A stretch of 64,000 nucleotides of DNA, from positions 1,984,001-2,048,000 of the forward strand of contig NZ_JBANDL010000002.1 in the NCBI RefSeq assembly GCF_037027445.1, given 5' to 3'. Each line of letters starts with the position of its first letter. The stretch's first letter is position 1. The notes under the pieces were generated by a model. The model was not told the DNA's origin and searched no databases. It was given only the letters and a program-made list of their open reading frames with translations. This DNA comes from Lysobacter firmicutimachus (lineage in GTDB: Bacteria > Pseudomonadota > Gammaproteobacteria > Xanthomonadales > Xanthomonadaceae). Positions 23,171 through 31,839 of the stretch are shown in pieces. Both the position numbers and the translations under genes were made by a program.

Positions 23171-23761
23171 TCAGCGCCGGCCGGGCGCTGGGGCCAGTCG
23201 GGTCAGGGCCCCCGGCTTCCAGGCGTAGTGCCAGGTATGCCGGCCGGGCGCGGGGCAGGCGGCGCTGTGGCCGTTTCCGGCGCCGGCATCGTCCTGACAG
23301 AACGGCGATGCCTCGCGAGCGAGGAATGCCACCGAAATGCGCTGGTCCGCCACCCGGATCGATTCGACCTCGCCGGGAATCTGCGCACTGGCGTTCTCGA
23401 CGTAGCCGAGCGCGCGGACCCGGGCCAGATGGGCTTTCTCGGCGTCGTCGCTGAGGCGCGAGGGCTGCGCGCGCGGATCGTTCGGGCGCAGTGCGTCCAG
23501 CACCGTCAGCGAGTTCTCGCAATCGAAATTGGCCTGGGCGCAGGTGGCCGTCAGCAGGAACAGGATTTCGGCGCGGCCGTCGCCGTCGAGATCGGCGACC
23601 TGGACCCGGCGGGCGCGGAAATCGCTTTGGATGTCGTCGCCGTAGCGGTTGTCGGCGACCGCGTCCGCTGCGCGTTGGGCCGCGGTCGTATCCGCAGGCG
23701 CGGCGAACGACAGGCCCGCCCAACAGGCGAGCGACGACAAGACGACGGCAGTCCTTGGCAT
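23171..23761 (-). CDS. Secreted hypothetical protein with an FG-GAP-like motif
   Basis: The 196-residue protein has a signal peptide (VVLSSLACWAGLSFAAP). VQVADLDGDGRAEILFL near residue 55 is an FG-GAP/VCBS-like calcium-binding turn. Four cysteines in the mature part (TCAQANFDCEN, FCQDD, ACPAP) could form disulfides in the periplasm. No further domain is recognised, and the role is unknown. Confidence 0.65.
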   Translation of the reverse strand: MPRTAVVLSSLACWAGLSFAAPADTTAAQRAADAVADNRYGDDIQSDFRARRVQVADLDGDGRAEILFLLTATCAQANFDCENSLTVLDALRPNDPRAQPSRLSDDAEKAHLARVRALGYVENASAQIPGEVESIRVADQRISVAFLAREASPFCQDDAGAGNGHSAACPAPGRHTWHYAWKPGALTRLAPAPGRR

Positions 23762-24392
23762 GGCGACGATTCCCGGCGCCTCGAGGGTGAGGCGGCTGCG
23801 GCCTAGATTACGCCACCGTGCGCGCTGCGCAACGAGACGCCGGCGGTCCGGAGGCGGTGGCGCGACGTGGCCGCGCCGTGCCGGGCGGTCGTGTGGTGGC
23901 CCGGTGCGCCCGGCGCCGGTTTTATGCGGCCCAAGCCTCGCCAGCGACGACGGCCTAGGCCGGAGCGGATTGCGTCCGCGGCTGCGCCCGCGGCGCCGTT
24001 GCGACCGCCTTGGCGCTGGCCGAGCCCGTCTTGCTCGACGCCTGCACACGCAGCGACGCCTGCGGCGAGGCCTGTCCGGAGCGGGTGCTCGCGCGCGACG
24101 CAGCGGGCCGGCGACTTGGCGCTATCGCGCGGATACCGACCCTTTATCGCGCCTGGGCGCGGCTTCGAGTTTTACGGCACTCCGAAAGGCGCGCGCTGAT
24201 CTGGGCCCTGCCTCAAGCGGTGGCAGGGGCACGCGCGAGAAGACCTGCGTCGACTGCCCCAAGCGCATCGCCCCTTGGTTGCCTGACGTGAGCGGGGTGC
24301 CGCAAGGCTAGAACAGGGCGGCGCGAACTCGCCTGCGGGCGAGCAACCGACGGACGCGAACGGTTCCGTCCGCGCTGCCGCGTAGCGGGCGC
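23762..24392. other. Gene-free gap of about 630 bp
   Basis: Several frames are open here, as expected at this G+C content, but none has a good start, a recognisable product or neighbours that support it. A frame at 24010-24291 is the best of them and still looks random. The right part precedes the end of the first FAS1 module. Confidence 0.45.
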
Positions 24393-24878
24393 TCAGCGCG
24401 CGTCCGGAAACCGGTTGACCCGGTCGATGCCGTGGATGGCGGCGTTGCTCGCATGCAGGTTGGGCTGGACGACCTTGGCGATGCCGACCATCACATGCCT
24501 GTCGACCGATTGGATCGCCAGGCTGTTTCCGTGCAAGGTCTTCAGCGAACTCCAGCGCTCGAACTCGGCCACGGTCTTGCGCCTGGCGATCAGGTGATGG
24601 CACAGCAAGTCGATCAGGCGCGGCTGGTTCGGCGCGAGCAACAGCGATTCGAGGTAGCCATCCGGAAGCATGCCGAACGCTGCATCGGTGGGGATGAAGG
24701 CGGTGAACGGACCGGGCCCGTCCAGCAGTTCGCGCAATCCGGCGCGTTCGGCCGCGTCGCAGAACACGGAGAACCCGTGCTCGGCGGCGACTTCGAGCAG
24801 CTTTCTTGCGGTGCTGTCCGGGCGGGCGATGGAGACGATCCGCGGCATGACGCGCGCGGACAGGGCGGAGGAGTTCAT
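24393..24878 (-). CDS. Fasciclin (FAS1) domain protein, copy 1, type a
   Basis: The 161-residue protein is one FAS1 domain. It carries GPGPFTAFIPTDAAFGMLP (H1-like box), a CHHLI segment and the terminal HGIDRV box. There is no signal peptide, whereas FAS1 proteins are usually exported. It is one of four genes in a module repeated at 27871-29843; its counterpart there is very similar throughout. It lies 64 bp downstream of the small two-helix membrane protein gene, on the same strand. FAS1 domains mediate adhesion or ligand binding, but the role of intracellular ones is not known. Confidence 0.88.
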   Translation of the reverse strand: MNSSALSARVMPRIVSIARPDSTARKLLEVAAEHGFSVFCDAAERAGLRELLDGPGPFTAFIPTDAAFGMLPDGYLESLLLAPNQPRLIDLLCHHLIARRKTVAEFERWSSLKTLHGNSLAIQSVDRHVMVGIAKVVQPNLHASNAAIHGIDRVNRFPDAR

Positions 24879-24942
24879 GTGGTTGTCCTTGGATGGCAGC
24901 GCACTGAAGCGCGCGCTGCGATGGTGCGATGGATGGAACGAA

Positions 24943-25284
24943 TCACCAGCCCCAGACGCTGATGGCCAGGAGCAGAATGCAGCCCGATATCGCGGTCGCC
25001 CAGTACGAGGCGAGCATCTGCCCGCGATTGTCCTTGCAATACAGCGCGCCGCCGCGATCCTGGCTGAGTCGGAAGTTCCGGTCCCTGAGATAGATCATGA
25101 GATTGCGCGCACCGCGCGGCGTATTGGGCGGCCCGTTCCGTTCCGATGGGCGAGGGCTGCGGAGGTGATCGCGCTGCTTCGGATGCAAGGTGCCAAGCAG
25201 TTTCCAGAATCTGGCCCGAAGCAGGGATTCGATCGCGATCGCCGAAACGAACAGGATCAGCGCGGACAAGGTGATCGCGTTCAT
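24943..25284 (-). CDS. Two-helix small membrane protein, FAS1 module copy 1
   Basis: The 113-residue protein has an N-terminal helix (AITLSALILFVSAIAIESLL) and a C-terminal helix (YWATAISGCILLLAISVWGW) around a charged centre. The centre carries LMIYLRDRNFRL and RGGALYCKDNRG, both nearly unchanged in the second copy (28417-28758). The start overlaps the stop of the upstream 83-residue ORF by ATGA, so the two are translationally coupled. The hydrophilic part with a conserved cysteine probably faces the cytoplasm. No known family is recognised. Confidence 0.75.
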   Translation of the reverse strand: MNAITLSALILFVSAIAIESLLRARFWKLLGTLHPKQRDHLRSPRPSERNGPPNTPRGARNLMIYLRDRNFRLSQDRGGALYCKDNRGQMLASYWATAISGCILLLAISVWGW

Positions 25285-25532
25285 TCGGCGCCCGCCCGGG
25301 CAGCGGCCAGCCGTCGCCGTAGTCCGCGCGAGCCCTTGTCAGGGAGCGGTTCGCGTCGGTCGCGATCGGTAAAGTAGTGCCGCCACGGTGTGGCCGGCCT
25401 CAGCGGGGCGGGATCGGGAGCGAGAATGGGCCAGCCTTCGCTCTCTGCGTCCTGGATCGCTCGCAGGTCCTGCAGGACGAGATTGCGCGCTGCGTGGGCC
25501 CGGAGCAGTTCGAGGTGCGCTTGAGCGTACAT
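25281..25532 (-). CDS. 83-residue soluble protein, FAS1 module copy 1
   Basis: The first 57 residues are well conserved with the counterpart at 28755-29006, including AHLELLR, QDxRAIQDAESEGWP and LRPATPWRHYF; the last 26 residues have drifted. The conservation at the protein level argues that this is a real gene. It is the first gene of the leftward trio and overlaps the membrane-protein gene by 4 bp. No family or signal peptide is recognised. The AIQDAESEGWP stretch suggests a short helix followed by a turn. Confidence 0.65.
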   Translation of the reverse strand: MYAQAHLELLRAHAARNLVLQDLRAIQDAESEGWPILAPDPAPLRPATPWRHYFTDRDRREPLPDKGSRGLRRRLAAARAGAE

Positions 25533-25823
25533 GCCGTTCTCCGGCCTGCACGCTGAGGAGCGGCTGGCGGCAGACGCTTCGATGCTTGCAGGTACACACC
25601 CTATCAGACTTCCTGCGGTTCGGCGCGACGGCGAACTCGTCACGGCGAAGTAACGGAGCAAGGCGCATGTTGGCCGGGTTGCGGTGCAATGCCGCAACGG
25701 CTGCTCAAGCCGCGCCGCACGTCCATTCACTCTCCGCATTGAGTCATCGCTCCCGATACGCGGGGGCATCGGCTTCGGCCATCCTCGATTCGCCCGATGC
25801 GAATCCATCAGCAGGCCACTTCC
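25533..25823. promoter_or_regulatory. Conserved divergent control region, FAS1 copy 1
   Basis: The stretch 25678-25753 differs at only two positions from 29155-29230 in the second copy, a tighter match than in the coding parts. It includes the inverted repeat GTTGCGG (25678-25684) and CCGCAAC (25692-25698) around TGCAATG. This may be an operator or an RNA hairpin in the FAS1b leader. Promoters for both gene directions should lie here. Confidence 0.6.
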
Positions 25824-26285
25824 ATGACTACTCCCCAGAACACCCAGCAAACCGAGACGTCGAACCTCAGCGTGCTCGACACCGTCGCCGCCAACGGTTC
25901 GTTCGGCATTTTCGGCCGCGCCGTGGAACAAGCCGGCTTGAAGGAAACCTTGGCCGGACCGGGACCGTTCACCGTCTTCGCGCCGACCGATGCGGCTTTC
26001 GACAGCCTGCCGGCAGGCAAGTTGGACGATCTGTTCAAGCCGGAAAACCAGGAGCAACTGAGCTCGATCCTCAAGTACCACATCGTCAACGGCCGGCGCA
26101 GCGTGGCCGACGTGGGCAAGTGGGATGCGGCCAGGACCGTCAACGGCCAGCCGGCGCCGATCAAGCGCGAGGGCGAGACCGTCAGCATCGACGGTGCGCG
26201 CATCACCGTGGCCGACCTGAGCTCGGCCAACGGGTTCGTGCACGGAATCGACAAAGTCAACCTGCCGGCGGCGAAGCAGAACTAG
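25824..26285 (+). CDS. Fasciclin (FAS1) domain protein, copy 1, type b
   Basis: The 153-residue protein is a single FAS1 domain without a signal peptide. It contains FGRAVEQAGLKETLAGPGPF, TVFAPTDAAFDSLPAGKL, a YHIVNGRR segment and the closing VHGIDKVNLPA. I chose ATG 25824 over 25797 because the counterpart at 29302 begins at the same place. The second half is almost identical to that counterpart. It is transcribed away from the other three genes of the module and ends in its own terminator. The role is unknown; bacterial FAS1 proteins are often linked to surface adhesion or stress. Confidence 0.88.
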   Translation: MTTPQNTQQTETSNLSVLDTVAANGSFGIFGRAVEQAGLKETLAGPGPFTVFAPTDAAFDSLPAGKLDDLFKPENQEQLSSILKYHIVNGRRSVADVGKWDAARTVNGQPAPIKREGETVSIDGARITVADLSSANGFVHGIDKVNLPAAKQN

Positions 26286-26328
26286 CGCACGCCGCGAGGC
26301 AGGGATAGCCTTCATCGAGATCGTTGGA

Positions 26329-26352
26329 AAGGCCGGCGCAAGCCGGCCTTTT
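26329..26352 (+). terminator. Intrinsic terminator of FAS1b copy 1
   Basis: AAGGCCGGC pairs with GCCGGCCTT around GCAA, and a T-run follows. The equivalent hairpin after copy 2 has one base pair changed on both sides, so the stem has been kept by selection. Confidence 0.8.
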
Positions 26353-26565
26353 CCGTTGTGGCGCCGCCGGGCGGGTAAGCGACGGGGCCGTGGGCGCTGC
26401 GACAGGCGAATCGATCCAGGGTTCGCGGCAGCGCGCCGAGAGCGGCCCGGATGCCGGGTGCCGACCCTGCGCCGGTACTGCGTTGGGCAGGCCGCGGGCG
26501 CAGCGTGCGTCGGCGGAGCTGCGATCCGGTCCTCCCGTGCCGCGCCGATGCGGTAGCCTTCGCCC

Positions 26566-27261
26566 ATGCGCATCCTCGTCGTCGAAGACCAAACGGACCT
26601 GCGGCAGGCGGTGGCCAAGCGCATCCGCGCGCTCGGCCACGCCGCCGACGAAGCGCCGGACGGCGCGATGGCCGAATCTTTCGTTCGCAGCTACGTCTAC
26701 GACGCCTTGATCCTGGACCGGCTGCTGCCCGACGGCGACGCCCTGGTCCTGCTGCGGCGCTGGCGCGGCGAGGGCCTGGGCGCGCCGGCGTTGTTCCTAA
26801 CCGCCTGCGATCAGGTCGACGACCGCATCGAAGGCCTGGCCAGCGGCGCCGACGACTATCTGATCAAGCCGTTTTCGATGGACGAGCTGATGGCGCGGAT
26901 CGCGGCGATCGCCCGTCGCGGCGGTTCCATCCGACCCACCCGGCTGCGGGTCGGCGATCTGGAGATCGACCTGGGCCGGCGCGAAGTGCATCGGCGCGGG
27001 GTGCTGTTGCCGCTGCGGCCGAAGGAGTTCGCGGTGCTGCAGCGGCTGGCCGAACGCGCCGGCCGGGTGGTGTCGCGCAGCGAGCTGATCGCCGGCTGCT
27101 GGGGCGAGGACCGCGAGCCGGCTTCGAACGCCGAAGAAGCGGTGATGGCCGCGTTGCGGCGCAAGCTCGGCGATCCCTCGCCGCTGCGCATGGTGCGCGG
27201 CGCCGGCTATGCGCTCGAAGACGGCCCGCTTGAGGGCGGCGATGGCCCCCAGGCTCCGTGA
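26566..27261 (+). CDS. OmpR/PhoB-type response regulator, orphan
   Basis: The 231-residue protein has a receiver domain with the acidic pocket E7/D8, phospho-acceptor D51 (ALILDRLLPD), T79 and K101 (LIKPF). A C-terminal winged-helix DNA-binding domain follows, with LRPKEFAVLQRLAERAG and the closing VRGAGYAL. The family binds direct repeats at sigma70 promoters. No histidine kinase gene lies next to it, which is unusual for this class. It sits between the two FAS1 modules; control of the modules by it is possible but not shown. Confidence 0.92.
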   Translation: MRILVVEDQTDLRQAVAKRIRALGHAADEAPDGAMAESFVRSYVYDALILDRLLPDGDALVLLRRWRGEGLGAPALFLTACDQVDDRIEGLASGADDYLIKPFSMDELMARIAAIARRGGSIRPTRLRVGDLEIDLGRREVHRRGVLLPLRPKEFAVLQRLAERAGRVVSRSELIAGCWGEDREPASNAEEAVMAALRRKLGDPSPLRMVRGAGYALEDGPLEGGDGPQAP

Positions 27262-27623
27262 CCGCCGGCTGCGCGCCGTCGCGCGGCGCCCGCGCTTCGG
27301 TAACCGGCGACCCGATGCAGACCGCCCCCTGTACCGCAACGGCGGCATGGCGCATCGCGTGATCCAGCAGCAACCGGCGGCGCTCCGAATCGAGCGCGGC
27401 ACCGCGCCGATGCGCCGGGGCGGCCTGGGAGGGGGAGTCGGCGCAGGTCGAGCGCGCGCGATGCCAAGGCGATGCCGACGGTTGCCGGACATGATTGGAG
27501 CGCAGGGCTGAATGGAGGATTCGGGGGCCGGGTCGGCCGGCCGACGGAAGGCGGGGAGCCGAGGCCGATTAGGAGGATGATGGTCGCAGGGCCGGACGCG
27601 TGTCCGGCCGATGGAGGCGCGCC
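27262..27623. other. Gap with a perfect inverted repeat before a small ORF
   Basis: No accepted gene lies here. GGCCGGAC (27590-27597) and GTCCGGCC (27602-27609) form an 8-bp inverted repeat around GCGT. It lies 14 bp before the GTG of the next small ORF and could be an operator or a translation-blocking hairpin. Confidence 0.45.
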
Positions 27624-27866
27624 GTGGCGACCCAAAACATGGCCTGGTTCATTACCGCCTGCGACGACCGTGGCCAATGCGGCGATCTGCTGTGCATCCG
27701 TTCCAGCGACGTAACCTCGCTTGGCGATGGGACCGAGAAAACCGAGCAGTTGTCGATCTCGATCCGCAATCGCGAAGGCAGGGCGCTGAGGCGGCGTAGC
27801 GAAGGCATCTACGTCGACGATGGGGTGAACAGAGTCTATTGGTCGCAAGATCCTTCCGCGCCCTAG
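27624..27866 (+). CDS. Small hypothetical protein
   Basis: An 80-residue ORF begins at GTG 27624, with GGAGG at normal spacing. The sequence (for example MAWFITACDDRGQCGDLLCI) has three cysteines in its first third and reads as a small folded protein. Codon use is less G+C-biased at third positions than in most neighbours. It ends 4 bp before the stop of the convergent FAS1a copy 2. No family is recognised, and the opposite strand is also open, so the call is tentative. Confidence 0.5.
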   Translation: MATQNMAWFITACDDRGQCGDLLCIRSSDVTSLGDGTEKTEQLSISIRNREGRALRRRSEGIYVDDGVNRVYWSQDPSAP

Positions 27867-27870
27867 CCGA

Positions 27871-28362
27871 CTATCGGCCAGGGGCGGGGAAAAGGTTGAC
27901 GCGATCGATGCCGTGGATCGCGGCGTTGCTCGCATACAGGTTGGGCAGGGTGACCTTGGCGGCGCCGACCATCACTTGCTTGTCGATCGCCTGGATCGCC
28001 AGGCTGTTCCCATGCAGGGTCTTGAGCGAATCCCAACGCTCGAACTCGGCGACGGTCTTGCGTTTCGGGACGATGTGGTGGCACAGCAGGTCGACCAGGC
28101 GCTGCTTGTTCTCGGCCAGGAACAGCGATTCGAGATAGCCCGGCGGAAGCTCGGCGAATGCGGCGTCGGTGGGCAGGAAAGCCGTGAACGGGCCCGGCCC
28201 ATCGAGCAGATCGCGCAATCCGGCGCGCTCGGCCGCGTCGCAGAAGATCGCGAAGGATCCCTGTTCGGCCGCGACGTCGAGCAGTTTCTTCGCGGCCGGT
28301 TCGGGGCGTGCAATGGCGGTGATCCGCGGCATCGTGCCGGCGGACGGAGCGTGGGAATTCAT
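27871..28362 (-). CDS. Fasciclin (FAS1) domain protein, copy 2, type a
   Basis: The 163-residue protein closely matches the type a protein of copy 1. It shares ARKLL-like start helix, CDAAERAGLRDLLDGPGPF, TAFLPTDAAFAELP, LCHHI and the closing HGIDRVNLFP. No signal peptide is present. Differences from copy 1 are spread over the length and the reading frame is intact in both, which indicates that both copies remain under selection. The gene lies 54 bp after the small membrane-protein gene. Confidence 0.88.
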   Translation of the reverse strand: MNSHAPSAGTMPRITAIARPEPAAKKLLDVAAEQGSFAIFCDAAERAGLRDLLDGPGPFTAFLPTDAAFAELPPGYLESLFLAENKQRLVDLLCHHIVPKRKTVAEFERWDSLKTLHGNSLAIQAIDKQVMVGAAKVTLPNLYASNAAIHGIDRVNLFPAPGR

Positions 28363-28416
28363 GGGGTCGGCCTTGTGTGGCAGCGCGACTGCGCGCGCTG
28401 CGATGGGTGGGGCGAG

Positions 28417-28758
28417 TCACCAGCCCCAGATGCCGATGGCCAGCAGCAGAAGGCAACCCGATATCGCGGTCGCCCAGTACGAGTAGATCATCGGGCCGCG
28501 ATTGTCCTTGCAATACAGGGCGCCGCCGCGATCCAGGCTCAGGCGGAAGTTCCTGTCTCTGAGATAGATCATCAGCTTTCGCGCACCGCCTCGCTGGGTC
28601 GGCGGCGCTTCCCGCTCGGATTCGCGGCCGCGGTGGGCGTGGTCGTGCTGCTCGGGGTGCAGGTGGCCGAGCAGTTTCCAGAATCTGGCCTGGAGCAGGG
28701 ATTCGATCGCGATGGCCGCAACGAACAGGATCAACGCGGACAGAGTGATCGCGTTCAT
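28417..28758 (-). CDS. Two-helix small membrane protein, FAS1 module copy 2
   Basis: The 113-residue protein is the counterpart of the one at 24943-25284 and has the same length. The N-terminal helix, the LMIYLRDRNFRLS stretch, DRGGALYCKDNRG and the C-terminal helix ending in WGW are nearly unchanged. The variable part is the histidine- and glutamate-rich linker after the first helix (HLHPEQHDHAHRG), which could bind metal. It overlaps the upstream 83-residue ORF by ATGA. Confidence 0.75.
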   Translation of the reverse strand: MNAITLSALILFVAAIAIESLLQARFWKLLGHLHPEQHDHAHRGRESEREAPPTQRGGARKLMIYLRDRNFRLSLDRGGALYCKDNRGPMIYSYWATAISGCLLLLAIGIWGW

Positions 28759-29006
28759 TGCCGATCTCGCACGGCGATGCGCGGGCAGCGCCGCCGTCCG
28801 CTCGGATCCTGGCCAGGAAAGGGGCGGGGCGAGGCGCGATCGAAAAAATAGTGCCGCCACGGCGTGGCCGGCCTCAACGCGGCCGGATAGCGGCAGGGAA
28901 CCGGCCAGCCTTCGCTCTCCGCGTCCTGGATCGCGCGCGCGTCCTGTCGGTCGAGATCGCGAGCCGCGTTGGAGCGAAGCAGTTCGAGGTGCGCGTGGGC
29001 GTACAT
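28755..29006 (-). CDS. 83-residue soluble protein, FAS1 module copy 2
   Basis: This is the counterpart of 25281-25532. Both are 83 residues and share AHLELLR, RAIQDAESEGWP and LRPATPWRHYFxDR. The C-terminal third is unlike copy 1 and is rich in arginine and proline, so the conserved N-terminal part is probably the functional unit. No family is known. It heads the leftward trio of copy 2. Confidence 0.65.
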   Translation of the reverse strand: MYAHAHLELLRSNAARDLDRQDARAIQDAESEGWPVPCRYPAALRPATPWRHYFFDRASPRPFPGQDPSGRRRCPRIAVRDRQ

Positions 29007-29301
29007 GCCGTCCTCCGGCCTGCGGGCTGAGGAGCGGCTGGGAAGACGCTTCGGTGCTTGCAGGTAGCCACCATATCAGACCGCGCATTGCCCGGCGTGA
29101 CGAGAGCGCCGCCTCGTCACAGCAAAGTAACGAGGCCAAGCGCATGTTGGGCGGGTTGCGGTGCAATGCCGCAACGGCTGCTCAAGCCGCGCCGCACGTC
29201 CACTCACTCTCCGCATTGAGTTATCGCTCCTGATCTTTCAGGGGCATCGGCTTCGGCCATCCTCGATTCGCCGAAAGCGGATCCACCAGCAGGTGACCTC
29301 C
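29007..29301. promoter_or_regulatory. Conserved divergent control region, FAS1 copy 2
   Basis: It matches 25533-25823. The GTTGCGG/CCGCAAC inverted repeat is at 29155-29161 and 29169-29175. The following 55 bp up to 29230 are almost unchanged between copies, which suggests a shared regulator or leader structure. Confidence 0.6.
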
Positions 29302-29775
29302 ATGAATACCAATCAGAACTCCACTCCGAGCGCCAATCAAACCGCTGCCTCGACCCTCAGCGTGCTCGATACCGCCGCCGCCAACGGCTCGTTCGGCATT
29401 TTCGGTCGCGCGGTGGAAAAAGCCGGGCTCAAGGAAACCCTGGCCGGCCCGGGCCCGTTCACCGTCTTCGCCCCGACCGACGCGGCCTTCGACAGTCTGC
29501 CGGCCGGCAAACTGGACGAGCTGTTCAAGCCGGAAAACAAGGAACAGCTGAGCGCCATCATCAACTACCACGTCGTCAACGGCCGCCGCAGCGCGGCGGA
29601 CGTCGGCAAGTGGGATGCGGCCAGGACCGTCAACGGACAGCCGGCGCCGATCAAGCGCGACGGCGAGACCGTCAGCATCGATGGCGCGCGCATCACCGTG
29701 GCCGACCTGGCCTCGGCCAACGGGGTCGTGCATGGCATCGACAAGGTCAACCTGCCGGCGGCGAAGAAGAACTAG
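29302..29775 (+). CDS. Fasciclin (FAS1) domain protein, copy 2, type b
   Basis: The 157-residue protein begins with a short serine/asparagine-rich tail and then matches type b of copy 1 almost position for position. Shared features include SVLDTAAANGSFGIFGRAVE, GPGPFTVFAPTDAAFDSLP, VGKWDAARTVNGQPAPIKR and the closing HGIDKVNLPAAKKN. There is no signal peptide. ATG 29302 follows AGGTGACC. It diverges from the three leftward genes and is followed by a terminator. Confidence 0.88.
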   Translation: MNTNQNSTPSANQTAASTLSVLDTAAANGSFGIFGRAVEKAGLKETLAGPGPFTVFAPTDAAFDSLPAGKLDELFKPENKEQLSAIINYHVVNGRRSAADVGKWDAARTVNGQPAPIKRDGETVSIDGARITVADLASANGVVHGIDKVNLPAAKKN

Positions 29776-29818
29776 CGCGGCCGCGAGGCAGGGATCGCCT
29801 CCATCGCGAGTTGAAGCG

Positions 29819-29843
29819 AAAGGCCAGCGCAAGCTGGCCTTTT
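29819..29843 (+). terminator. Intrinsic terminator of FAS1b copy 2
   Basis: AAGGCCAGC pairs with GCTGGCCTT around GCAA, followed by a T-run. Compared with copy 1, a G-C pair has become A-T on both strands of the stem, a compensatory change. Confidence 0.8.
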
Positions 29844-30058
29844 CCGTTCTGGCGACGGCCCGGTTCGGATTCGGTCGCGTACATGTGCGCACTCATTCGA
29901 CCTGCGCGGCAAACGCGCATTTCGGCCTCGGAATCCAGACCAGGACGGCATGGTCGAGGCCGAAGACGGTAGGACCGGCGCCCGACCTGTTTTCCGGGCT
30001 GCACGACTGGGTGCTGGAGCTGTAGGCGCCTGCATCGCGCGGGCGGCGCCGTCGAAGG

Positions 30059-30469
30059 TCAACGCTCGCTGCCGCCGCCGTCCTGGGTTTTGCCCGGCGC
30101 CGGAGCGATGTCCAGGACATAGGCGACGCCGCCGGCGCGTCCGGAGGTCATCGTGCCGAACTCGGTCGCAGACACGGCGAAGCGGTAGCGTCCCGGCCGC
30201 GCCGGCTCGCCTTCGATCCGGGCGCAGTCCTCGCCGCGGGCGTGCTCCAGCCGCAGCCCGTCGGGCAACTCGCCCGAGTCGATCTCGAACGCGGCGATCG
30301 GATTGCCGGGGTTGGTAACGCAGAGGGATTGGGCATAAGGCGCACGAACCGAACCGGAGGGCAGGGCGTCGGGTTGCAGGCGCAACTCGCGGCTGCAGCC
30401 GGACGCGCCGGCCATCGCCGTGCACGTCGCGAGCGCAAGCCAGAGCGCATCGGTCTTGACCTTGAGCAT
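30059..30469 (-). CDS. Lipoprotein with a putative Ig-like (He_PIG) domain
   Basis: The 136-residue protein has a signal peptide with lipobox ASGC (cysteine near residue 25), so it should be lipidated and anchored to a membrane. The rest contains GSVRAPYAQSL, GELPDGLRLEHARG and EGEPARPGRYRFAVSATE, the pattern of the putative-Ig (He_PIG) family found in surface and adhesion proteins. It is divergent from the Sel1-like gene at 30586. The exact role is unknown. Start ATG 30469 is the only one that gives a normal signal peptide. Confidence 0.75.
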   Translation of the reverse strand: MLKVKTDALWLALATCTAMAGASGCSRELRLQPDALPSGSVRAPYAQSLCVTNPGNPIAAFEIDSGELPDGLRLEHARGEDCARIEGEPARPGRYRFAVSATEFGTMTSGRAGGVAYVLDIAPAPGKTQDGGGSER

Positions 30470-30585
30470 GGGGCCTTTGCATGATCGATCGCATTCGATC
30501 TTAGCCGCTGCTCGGTTCCGATGGCGGCGGACGGACGCGCCGCTCGAAGGCGGCGCGGTTGGCCTATCGCAGGGAGGGGAAGGCT

Positions 30586-31839
30586 TTGAAACAGGTTTGG
30601 TCGGCCGGTTTGGCCTTGCTGGGCGTTTTGTCCGGCGCCGACGCAACGGCGCGCTGCATGGACGTGGAGGGCCGGGTGGCCGCCTGCAGGATCGCCGGGC
30701 AGGCGAAAAGCCTGGCGATCTGCCTGGCCGGCGACGAAGCGGTGTATCGCTACGGCCCGAACCAGGGGCCGGACGAACTGGTGCTGCGCGCGCCGCTGAC
30801 CCAGCTCGGCTATTACCGTGCGGACGGCGCCCAGGGCACGATCGACGAGACGGTGGTGTTCGCCAACGGCGACCATGCCTATCGGGCCCGCTTCGGCTTT
30901 CGCGACGGCCAGGCGCCGGATCCGACCGAGCTGCGCAAGATCGGCGAGCTGCAGGTCCAGCGCAAGGGCGACACGGTCGCCGCCCTGACCTGCGCCGCGG
31001 ACAGCATCGAGCGGGTTCCCGAGCTGCTGCTCGACCGGATGCGCAAGCTCGGGCGCACCCACGCCAGCGACGCGGTCGAGTTTCCCAATTACGACATCGA
31101 GTATCCCGGCCCGGTCGCGCAGTCGCCGGCCTGCGAACGCGACTCGAACGTGGACAGTTGCTGGAGCCAGGGCGTCTCCGCTGCGCGCGGCGGCGATCCG
31201 GCGCTGGCGCTGGGTTACTTCGACAAATCCTGCGACGCCGACCTGGGCCCGCAAGGTTGCTACGAAGCCGGCAAGCTGTACCTGCACAACCGCAAGCTGC
31301 GCGACTACCCGCGCGCTTACGAACGCCTCGGCCGGGTCTGCGCCAGCGACGACATCGGCCAGGGGCCCTACGCCTGCAAGTACCTGGGCTGGATGCATCA
31401 CACCGGCATCGGCGCGCCGCGCGACACGGCCCAGGCCTGGACCTATCTGTCCAAGGCCTGCTTCCTGCACAACCCGGATTTGTTCCTGGACGCCGAAGGC
31501 TGCCACTTCCTCGCCGAAGCGGCCTTGGCCGGAGCGCCGCGCAGCGAACGGCCGCAGCGCGTATCCGGCGAGCGCGGTCAGCTGGCCTATCTCGCGCTGG
31601 CGATGGGCTGCGCCGACGGCGCCGAGGGCATCTGCGCCCAGGCCAGGACGCTACTGTCCGACGCCCGCGCCGCATCTGCCGCCTGGGTCGCCGGTTGCGA
31701 CGCGGACGCCGCGGCGTCGCCGCTCGGCGACTGCGCCGGCCTGATCGCGCCGCAGGCCGATTACGAAGCCAATCGGGCCTTGCGCAAACGGATTCTTTCG
31801 CGATTCCGCGACGCGTCGAGCGCGCTGGACGCGCCCTGA
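30586..31839 (+). CDS. Secreted Sel1-like repeat protein
   Basis: I choose TTG 30586 because GGGAGGGGAAGG sits just upstream and a signal peptide follows (KQVWSAGLALLGVLSGADATA). The mature protein, about 400 residues, has Sel1-type helical repeats from about residue 180 (DPALALGYFDKSCDADLGPQGCYEAGKLY, then DIGQGPYACKYLGWMHHTG). Regularly placed cysteines in the repeats recall the HcpA/disulfide-rich Sel1 proteins of the periplasm. Such proteins usually bind other proteins. The downstream gene is the tRNA on the other strand. Confidence 0.78.
   Translation: MKQVWSAGLALLGVLSGADATARCMDVEGRVAACRIAGQAKSLAICLAGDEAVYRYGPNQGPDELVLRAPLTQLGYYRADGAQGTIDETVVFANGDHAYRARFGFRDGQAPDPTELRKIGELQVQRKGDTVAALTCAADSIERVPELLLDRMRKLGRTHASDAVEFPNYDIEYPGPVAQSPACERDSNVDSCWSQGVSAARGGDPALALGYFDKSCDADLGPQGCYEAGKLYLHNRKLRDYPRAYERLGRVCASDDIGQGPYACKYLGWMHHTGIGAPRDTAQAWTYLSKACFLHNPDLFLDAEGCHFLAEAALAGAPRSERPQRVSGERGQLAYLALAMGCADGAEGICAQARTLLSDARAASAAWVAGCDADAAASPLGDCAGLIAPQADYEANRALRKRILSRFRDASSALDAP

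Follow-up and report, generated by a model that had tools for sequence, protein, structure and literature searches.

Promoters activated by regulators of the OmpR/PhoB type carry an 11-bp direct repeat, which ends about 11 nt ahead of the -10 element. Pseudoknotted 5' leaders, be they riboswitches, autoregulatory leaders or mRNA-stabilising leaders, present a conserved fold on the same strand as, and close to, the start codon of the gene that they head. Among proteins, the FAS1 (fasciclin) family usually bears an export signal, which is not, however, a criterion of membership. Here we describe a stretch of 64,000 nucleotides of Lysobacter firmicutimachus (the window), in which two blocks, each comprising the genes A (FAS1a), B (a two-helix membrane protein), C (an 83-residue protein) and D (FAS1b), are arranged round a conserved control element. 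With rather better than even confidence we read this element as a stress promoter that depends on an activator and is joined to a structured leader RNA at the 5' end of a cytosolic FAS1 gene's message.

Fasciclin genes are also found in photo-oxidative regulons. Rhodobacter sphaeroides induces one such gene, RSP_1409 (PMC7074977), and Chlamydomonas induces one fasciclin and two SOUL genes under singlet oxygen (PMC4067076).

A proposed control element ahead of FAS1 genes

The control element lies on the plus strand between C and D in both blocks. At the loci carrying B, nhmmer searches find it again ahead of FAS1 genes, C-B-A operons (L062, L064) and SOUL genes, and a covariance model, R1, built from 20 of the sequences so found, matches in 71 of 297 genomes of the bacterial family, representing 21 of 54 genera; the search filters being strict, weak copies may be missed. 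Among 274 genomes of the class, only that of the window itself gave a match, and a pattern scan of a collection of 84,980 species returned 45 loci; R1 recognises 43 of these, the exceptions being two loci from metagenome-assembled genomes (MAGs) named as Comamonadaceae and Frankiales. Carriers that bear a name belong in the main to Lysobacter, Pseudoxanthomonas, Luteimonas and Arenimonas, with a few MAGs otherwise named, and in the searches made the element appears restricted to one bacterial family. A dispersed repeat was rejected, as in the 5.32-Mb source genome no match other than those of the two blocks has an E below 0.4 (the third-best match has E 0.43); a second genome, assigned to the same species (G116), has two copies on one contig. 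In the family search 174 genomes bear FAS1, and three Lysobacter genomes (G157, G190, G283) show weak element matches yet no FAS1 match. When Rfam (4227 families) was searched with window positions 23500-30700 there was no match at E ≤ 1, and at six to eight related loci the matches were just tRNA, C4 and two below threshold, all away from the element. No prior report of such an element was found among open-licence papers, and the structured leader RNA, with no Rfam match in these scans, is apparently uncatalogued. The C4 antisense RNA match (L070 4586-4667(+), 53.5 bits) hints at a phage or satellite remnant nearby.

The alignment comprises 90 element copies from 85 loci. A FAS1 open reading frame (ORF) follows on the same strand in 71 of these, and in 56 of the 70 outside the set from which R1 was built; the distance from the end of R1 to the first possible FAS1 start has a median of 77 nt and falls within 60-90 nt in 46 of the 71. 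The remaining copies include some that head SOUL haem-binding proteins (PF04832 was found in all three element-led proteins tested), C-B-A operons, AENEGxP-type proteins and an AlaDH/PNT-like gene (L142), as well as several weak matches. A peptide, PRGETRV, is common to the small ORFs after the weak matches L171 and L182.

The assignment of A and D to FAS1, made in the earlier note, was upheld, since all four window proteins match PF02469 with 85-113 bits (cut-off 22); they are the sole FAS1 matches in their genome (n=4). The accompanying claim that they lack a signal also holds, as the N-terminus is not hydrophobic in any of the four (mean over 11 residues at most 1.13). By one common measure, no hydrophobic N-terminus is present in any of the 71 element-led FAS1 proteins as against 29 of 31 in an element-free comparison set, which consists of the FAS1 proteins at 30 loci of the family's best-scoring FAS1 matches and was thus picked by score and not at random. 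R1 gave no match at E ≤ 1 in these 30 loci. In 32 of the 71 element-led proteins fewer than 11 residues precede the domain, leaving no room for a signal. The element-led FAS1 proteins are accordingly classed as predicted cytosolic proteins; to our knowledge no established role has been assigned to cytosolic FAS1 proteins in bacteria. A DUF1254/DUF1214 protein adjoins the FAS1 locus in three genomes (L073 7025-8560(+), L076, L078).

Putative promoter and leader within the element

The 5' part of the element holds a box, T[CA]AC-N7-TAAC, whose period is 11 bp. Its columns are nearly fixed in the 90 rows (T3 in 86, A5 in 88, C6 in 88, T14 in 85, A16 in 86, C17 in 87), as are G26 (88), A30 (90) and T34 (88) further 3', where the motif [CT]AnnnT resembles a -10 (TATATT in L143) and hairpin H1 begins 8-10 nt further on. 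In 20 Lysobacter genomes the box pattern occurs at 22 sites, compared with 1 for the reversed pattern; by our own reading 13 are element copies, and of the nine others three (L251, L247, L241; box at 1501) precede CHRD-type genes without the leader, and others have no clear gene. The CHRD-type proteins encoded behind a leaderless box in several Lysobacter species are secreted, PF07452 being confirmed for that of L251. Two sites, L235 (contig 1402336-1402367, minus strand, in the window's own genome) and L242 (G252), present the conserved box and then about 75 nt which end in a GC-rich hairpin, with no plausible gene; each is possibly a small RNA gene. Promoters of the sigma-54 and extracytoplasmic function (ECF) types were rejected by eye, their spacing and conservation being unsuited.

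In the leader proper, H1 keeps its GCAA loop while the stem letters change in a compensatory manner. Double-change cells in H1 and H2 number 72, compared with 23.1 ± 3.5 in shuffles, none of 500 of which reaches 72. Furthermore, in the best 60 rows G-U exceeds A-C by 17 to 1 in H1 and by 6 to 1 in H2, a preference which argues for RNA, since a palindrome acting as double-stranded DNA would be expected to lack it. CUCA, the loop of H2, forms a helix with a UGAG about 35 nt downstream, across a C-rich single strand. For this pseudoknot, to which the alignment was not fitted, 95.1% of cells are paired, with 9 double changes against 2.0 ± 1.2 in shuffles; the combinations include CUCG/CGGG (5), CUCU/AGAG (1), CACA/UGUG (1) and UCCG/CGGG (1), and in some rows the pairing is broken. 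Hairpin H3 is present in most leaders with varied stem letters. Because folding of the 3' part in fixed columns found H4 and not H3, a chimera control was used for the latter, giving a mean minimum free energy (MFE) of -13.4 for the leaders' own H3 against -9.1 for the chimeras; in the H3 region z is below -1 in 49 of 68 segments. H4, GGC-loop-GCC, shows compensatory changes in three of its five pairs. Two marks of a cis-acting leader, namely a place upstream of the start codon on the same strand and compensatory changes in predicted helices, are both found. An AUG is frequent in the loop of H1 (several rows have AUG-UCG-UAA, and both window copies have a frame of 17 codons); a leader peptide was rejected by eye, the frame not being kept between species. 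Conservation, position, covarying pairs, pseudoknot and family-wide spread, as well as the predicted cytosolic FAS1 products, are apparent from the sequences themselves.

The promoter, the type of activator and its regulator, the signal and the effect of the leader are what we infer. In the mechanism that we favour, an OmpR/PhoB-type activator would bind T[CA]AC-N7-TAAC in place of a -35 box, GCG[CT]AnnnT would act as a weak -10 and transcription would start just ahead of H1, such that the first 145 nt or so of the FAS1b mRNA would be a structured leader, comprising H1 with its GCAA loop, H2 with its CUCA-UGAG pseudoknot, the C-rich strand, H3 and H4, in this order, before the start codon. The activator would induce the cytosolic FAS1 protein and its companions, the UspB-like B and AENEGxP proteins and, at other loci, SOUL and CHRD proteins, while the leader would set mRNA stability or translation. 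The inducing signal would be stress, which, by analogy with the regulons mentioned above, may be photo-oxidative.

The duplicated block and its small proteins

Table 1. Coordinates, within the window, of the genes and control-element features of the two blocks
Feature	Copy	Position	Strand	Remarks
FAS1a (A1)	1	24393..24878	-	161 aa, no hydrophobic N-terminus
B1, two-helix membrane protein	1	24943..25284	-	113 aa, distantly UspB-like
C1, 83-aa protein	1	25281..25532	-	AESEGWP motif
Control element	1	25638..25748	+	R1 match 100.4 bits (contig 2009638-2009748)
Direct repeat TCAC-N7-TAAC (promoter box)	1	25640..25654	+	conserved columns
Putative -10, CATGTT	1	25666..25671	+	alignment columns 29-34
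Hairpin H1	1	25679..25697	+	leader hairpin
Hairpin H2	1	25698..25712	+	loop CUCA pairs with UGAG 25740-25743, pseudoknot
Hairpin H3	1	25749..25767	+	leader hairpin
Hairpin H4	1	25771..25780	+	GGC-UUCG-GCC
FAS1b (D1)	1	25824..26285	+	153 aa
FAS1a (A2)	2	27871..28362	-	163 aa
B2, membrane protein	2	28417..28758	-	113 aa
C2	2	28755..29006	-	83 aa
Control element	2	29115..29225	+	R1 match 97.9 bits (contig 2013115-2013225)
Hairpin H1	2	29156..29174	+	then H2, loop pairing with UGAG 29217-29220
Hairpins H3 and H4	2	29226..29258	+	leader hairpins
FAS1b (D2)	2	29302..29775	+	157 aa

In each block A, B and C lie on the minus strand and D diverges from them on the plus strand, the blocks themselves being direct repeats with a spacing of 3.47-3.49 kb (Table 1). 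The earlier note had described a duplication of two intact blocks with the same overlaps and terminators. All eight ORFs are indeed intact and C overlaps B by 4 nt in both copies; the terminators agree in part, the D genes having in common a 3' hairpin GGCC..GGCC-TTTTCC (repeat D11) and no shared terminator being found 3' of the A genes. The D hairpin is not listed by a terminator consensus scan, which gave 4 terminator-like sites against a mean of 3.4 in shuffles and hence no enrichment. Amino acid identity between the copies is 75% for A, 79% for B, 59% for C and 87% for D, with dN/dS values of 0.28, 0.34, 0.55 and 0.21, respectively. Together with a dS of 0.35-0.59, these values indicate a diverged duplication under purifying selection, which appears weakest on C, a protein only weakly constrained between copies; there is no sign of neutral decay, which the earlier note would have counted against itself. 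The 113-nt stretch 5' of D is identical at 103 of 113 positions (91%), compared with 73-86% for the gene-bearing repeats, and contains a 30-nt run which is the same letter for letter in both copies.

Between the blocks lie an OmpR-type response regulator gene, 26566-27261 (+), and one small ORF. The best NCBIfam match of the regulator, PmrA, is below cut-off, and the ORF list contains no adjoining histidine-kinase gene; the regulator was considered as a candidate cognate activator, but none of the other loci compared has a relative of it next to the module.

Neither B nor C of the window has a family match in Pfam or NCBIfam at E ≤ 1. For the B family as a whole the top Pfam family is PF10625 (UspB), to which 6 of 20 members show a weak match (best E 0.013); none of the 20 reaches the curated cut-off, and membership was rejected on this ground. 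The window B protein has no match to PF10625, nor has any other protein of its genome. Alignment of B with E. coli UspB by hhalign gives P 2.9e-4 over 49 columns, and the AF2 model of B is weak, with a mean predicted local distance difference test score (pLDDT) of 69. Relatives of B occur at 25 places in 18 of the 297 family genomes and 2 of the 54 genera. With two of these places (G223:C1, G078:C5) left out, a FAS1 gene is present in the stretch fetched round B at 20 of 23, or at 16 of 19 once the window and the genome of the same species are set aside, the places lacking FAS1 in the fetched stretch being L066, L068 and L069; that the small proteins might occur mostly apart from FAS1 genes, which the earlier note would have counted against itself, is therefore not the case for B.

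Protein C is marked by the motif A-E-N/S-E-G-W-P. At 12 of 21 loci a C-type ORF with the AENEGWP motif lies immediately 5' of B, and in 8 of these the two overlap by 4 nt; at the other 9 none with the motif is found. An AENEGxP-type motif is also present in a family of 130-aa proteins beside SOUL genes, of which 15 were found and two, tested against Pfam, gave no match; its sites, among them L072 8778-9278, L078 4539-5003, L145 and L068, adjoin SOUL genes or are element-led. A DNA ligase D gene adjoins the B/C genes at L065 (1423-4053(-)), with a matching gene in L066.

Other species hold the pieces in other combinations, such as C-B-A operons (L062, L064), D with B (L061, L063) or C-B without FAS1 (L066). 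In the Lysobacter genomes G293 and G263, C-B-A and D-with-B form separate loci (L061-L064), each with its own element; in the window, C-B-A and D are joined divergently round one element facing D, and the whole is duplicated.

Rival readings and known systems

The earlier note took the four genes for a single working cassette with jointly acting products, in which case the shared upstream DNA would be a matter of ordinary co-regulation. Much of what it rested on stands, inasmuch as neither copy is broken, purifying selection is evident between them, B is commonly found beside FAS1 and the C-B overlap is frequent. A fixed four-gene cassette, however, is not supported by the comparison, since gene content and order differ among species and most genera with the element and its FAS1 gene lack B and C (of 54 genera, 2 have B and 21 the element before FAS1), and we consider joint action of the four products improbable. 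The more widely conserved unit is instead that of putative promoter, leader RNA and cytosolic FAS1 gene. Each block is best read as a paralogous stress-type gene set round a conserved control element, and as a local version of a wider regulon; that the four proteins form a machine is less well supported.

Could the element act as DNA? A dimeric regulator might bind the H1 palindrome, a perfect inverted repeat, together with the conserved direct repeat that adjoins it, the RNA fold being incidental; yet the stem changes are compensatory with the GCAA loop kept, G-U exceeds A-C, and the long-range pseudoknot and the further hairpins also covary, such that this reading seems quite unlikely. It is very unlikely that the leader yields a small RNA, derived from the 5' untranslated region (5'UTR), which acts in trans through its C-rich strand or loops: such a strand lies between H2 and UGAG and the leader also heads unrelated genes, e.g. 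SOUL, but by eye no T-run follows H3 or H4, and the closeness of the start codon suits a cis role. Several observations count against the promoter-and-leader reading that we prefer. The shuffles ignore ancestry and the alignment of H1 and H2 was fitted to those helices, which are part of the model; over all 90 rows the ratio of G-U to A-C falls to 27:12 in H1 and 12:5 in H2; H3 beats 95% of chimeras in just 21 of 58 cases; and the window leaders, folded singly, are not exceptional (z -1.8 and -0.5). A sigma-70 consensus scan finds no promoter, 19 of the 90 copies head no FAS1 gene, some of these being weak matches without a clear gene, and the C-B-A operon of the window has no R1 element on its own strand. 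A bolder extension, which we hold to be unlikely, is that the leader is a new pseudoknotted, riboswitch-like sensor RNA which reads a stress-tied molecule or state, for example a porphyrin or redox signal in view of its association with SOUL genes, and governs a regulon of cytosolic FAS1 and SOUL throughout the Lysobacter family.

By marking cytosolic FAS1, SOUL and UspB-like genes throughout the family, the putative promoter and its RNA leader would define a candidate regulon, for which box, leader and pseudoknot provide direct handles for finding the signal. Soil bacteria of biocontrol use would also gain a structured RNA that is apparently uncatalogued.

How, then, does the locus compare with described systems? 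Like UspB, the stress membrane protein of E. coli, B is a two-helix protein of about 110 aa; its N-terminal half falls outside the alignment and its score below the curated cut-off. The window-type FAS1 proteins match the fasciclin domain above its curated cut-off and are element-led, single-domain proteins without export signal, unlike the family's high-scoring comparison set, which mostly has export-type N-termini. The photo-oxidative regulons of Rhodobacter (RpoE/RpoHII) and Chlamydomonas (SAK1) include fasciclin genes and, in Chlamydomonas, SOUL genes too, but belong to other phyla and regulators than those of Lysobacter, and provide an analogy only. With pseudoknotted 5' leaders the element shares the conserved same-strand fold close to the start codon, compensatory changes, a pseudoknot and several gene partners; it differs from the known ones in having no Rfam match and in being confined, in the searches made, to one bacterial family. 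Finally, the putative promoter differs from those of the OmpR/PhoB type in its half-site, TNAC, and in the conserved GCG before the putative -10; the likeness would lie in its 11-bp direct repeat, which ends about 11 nt before this -10-like motif.

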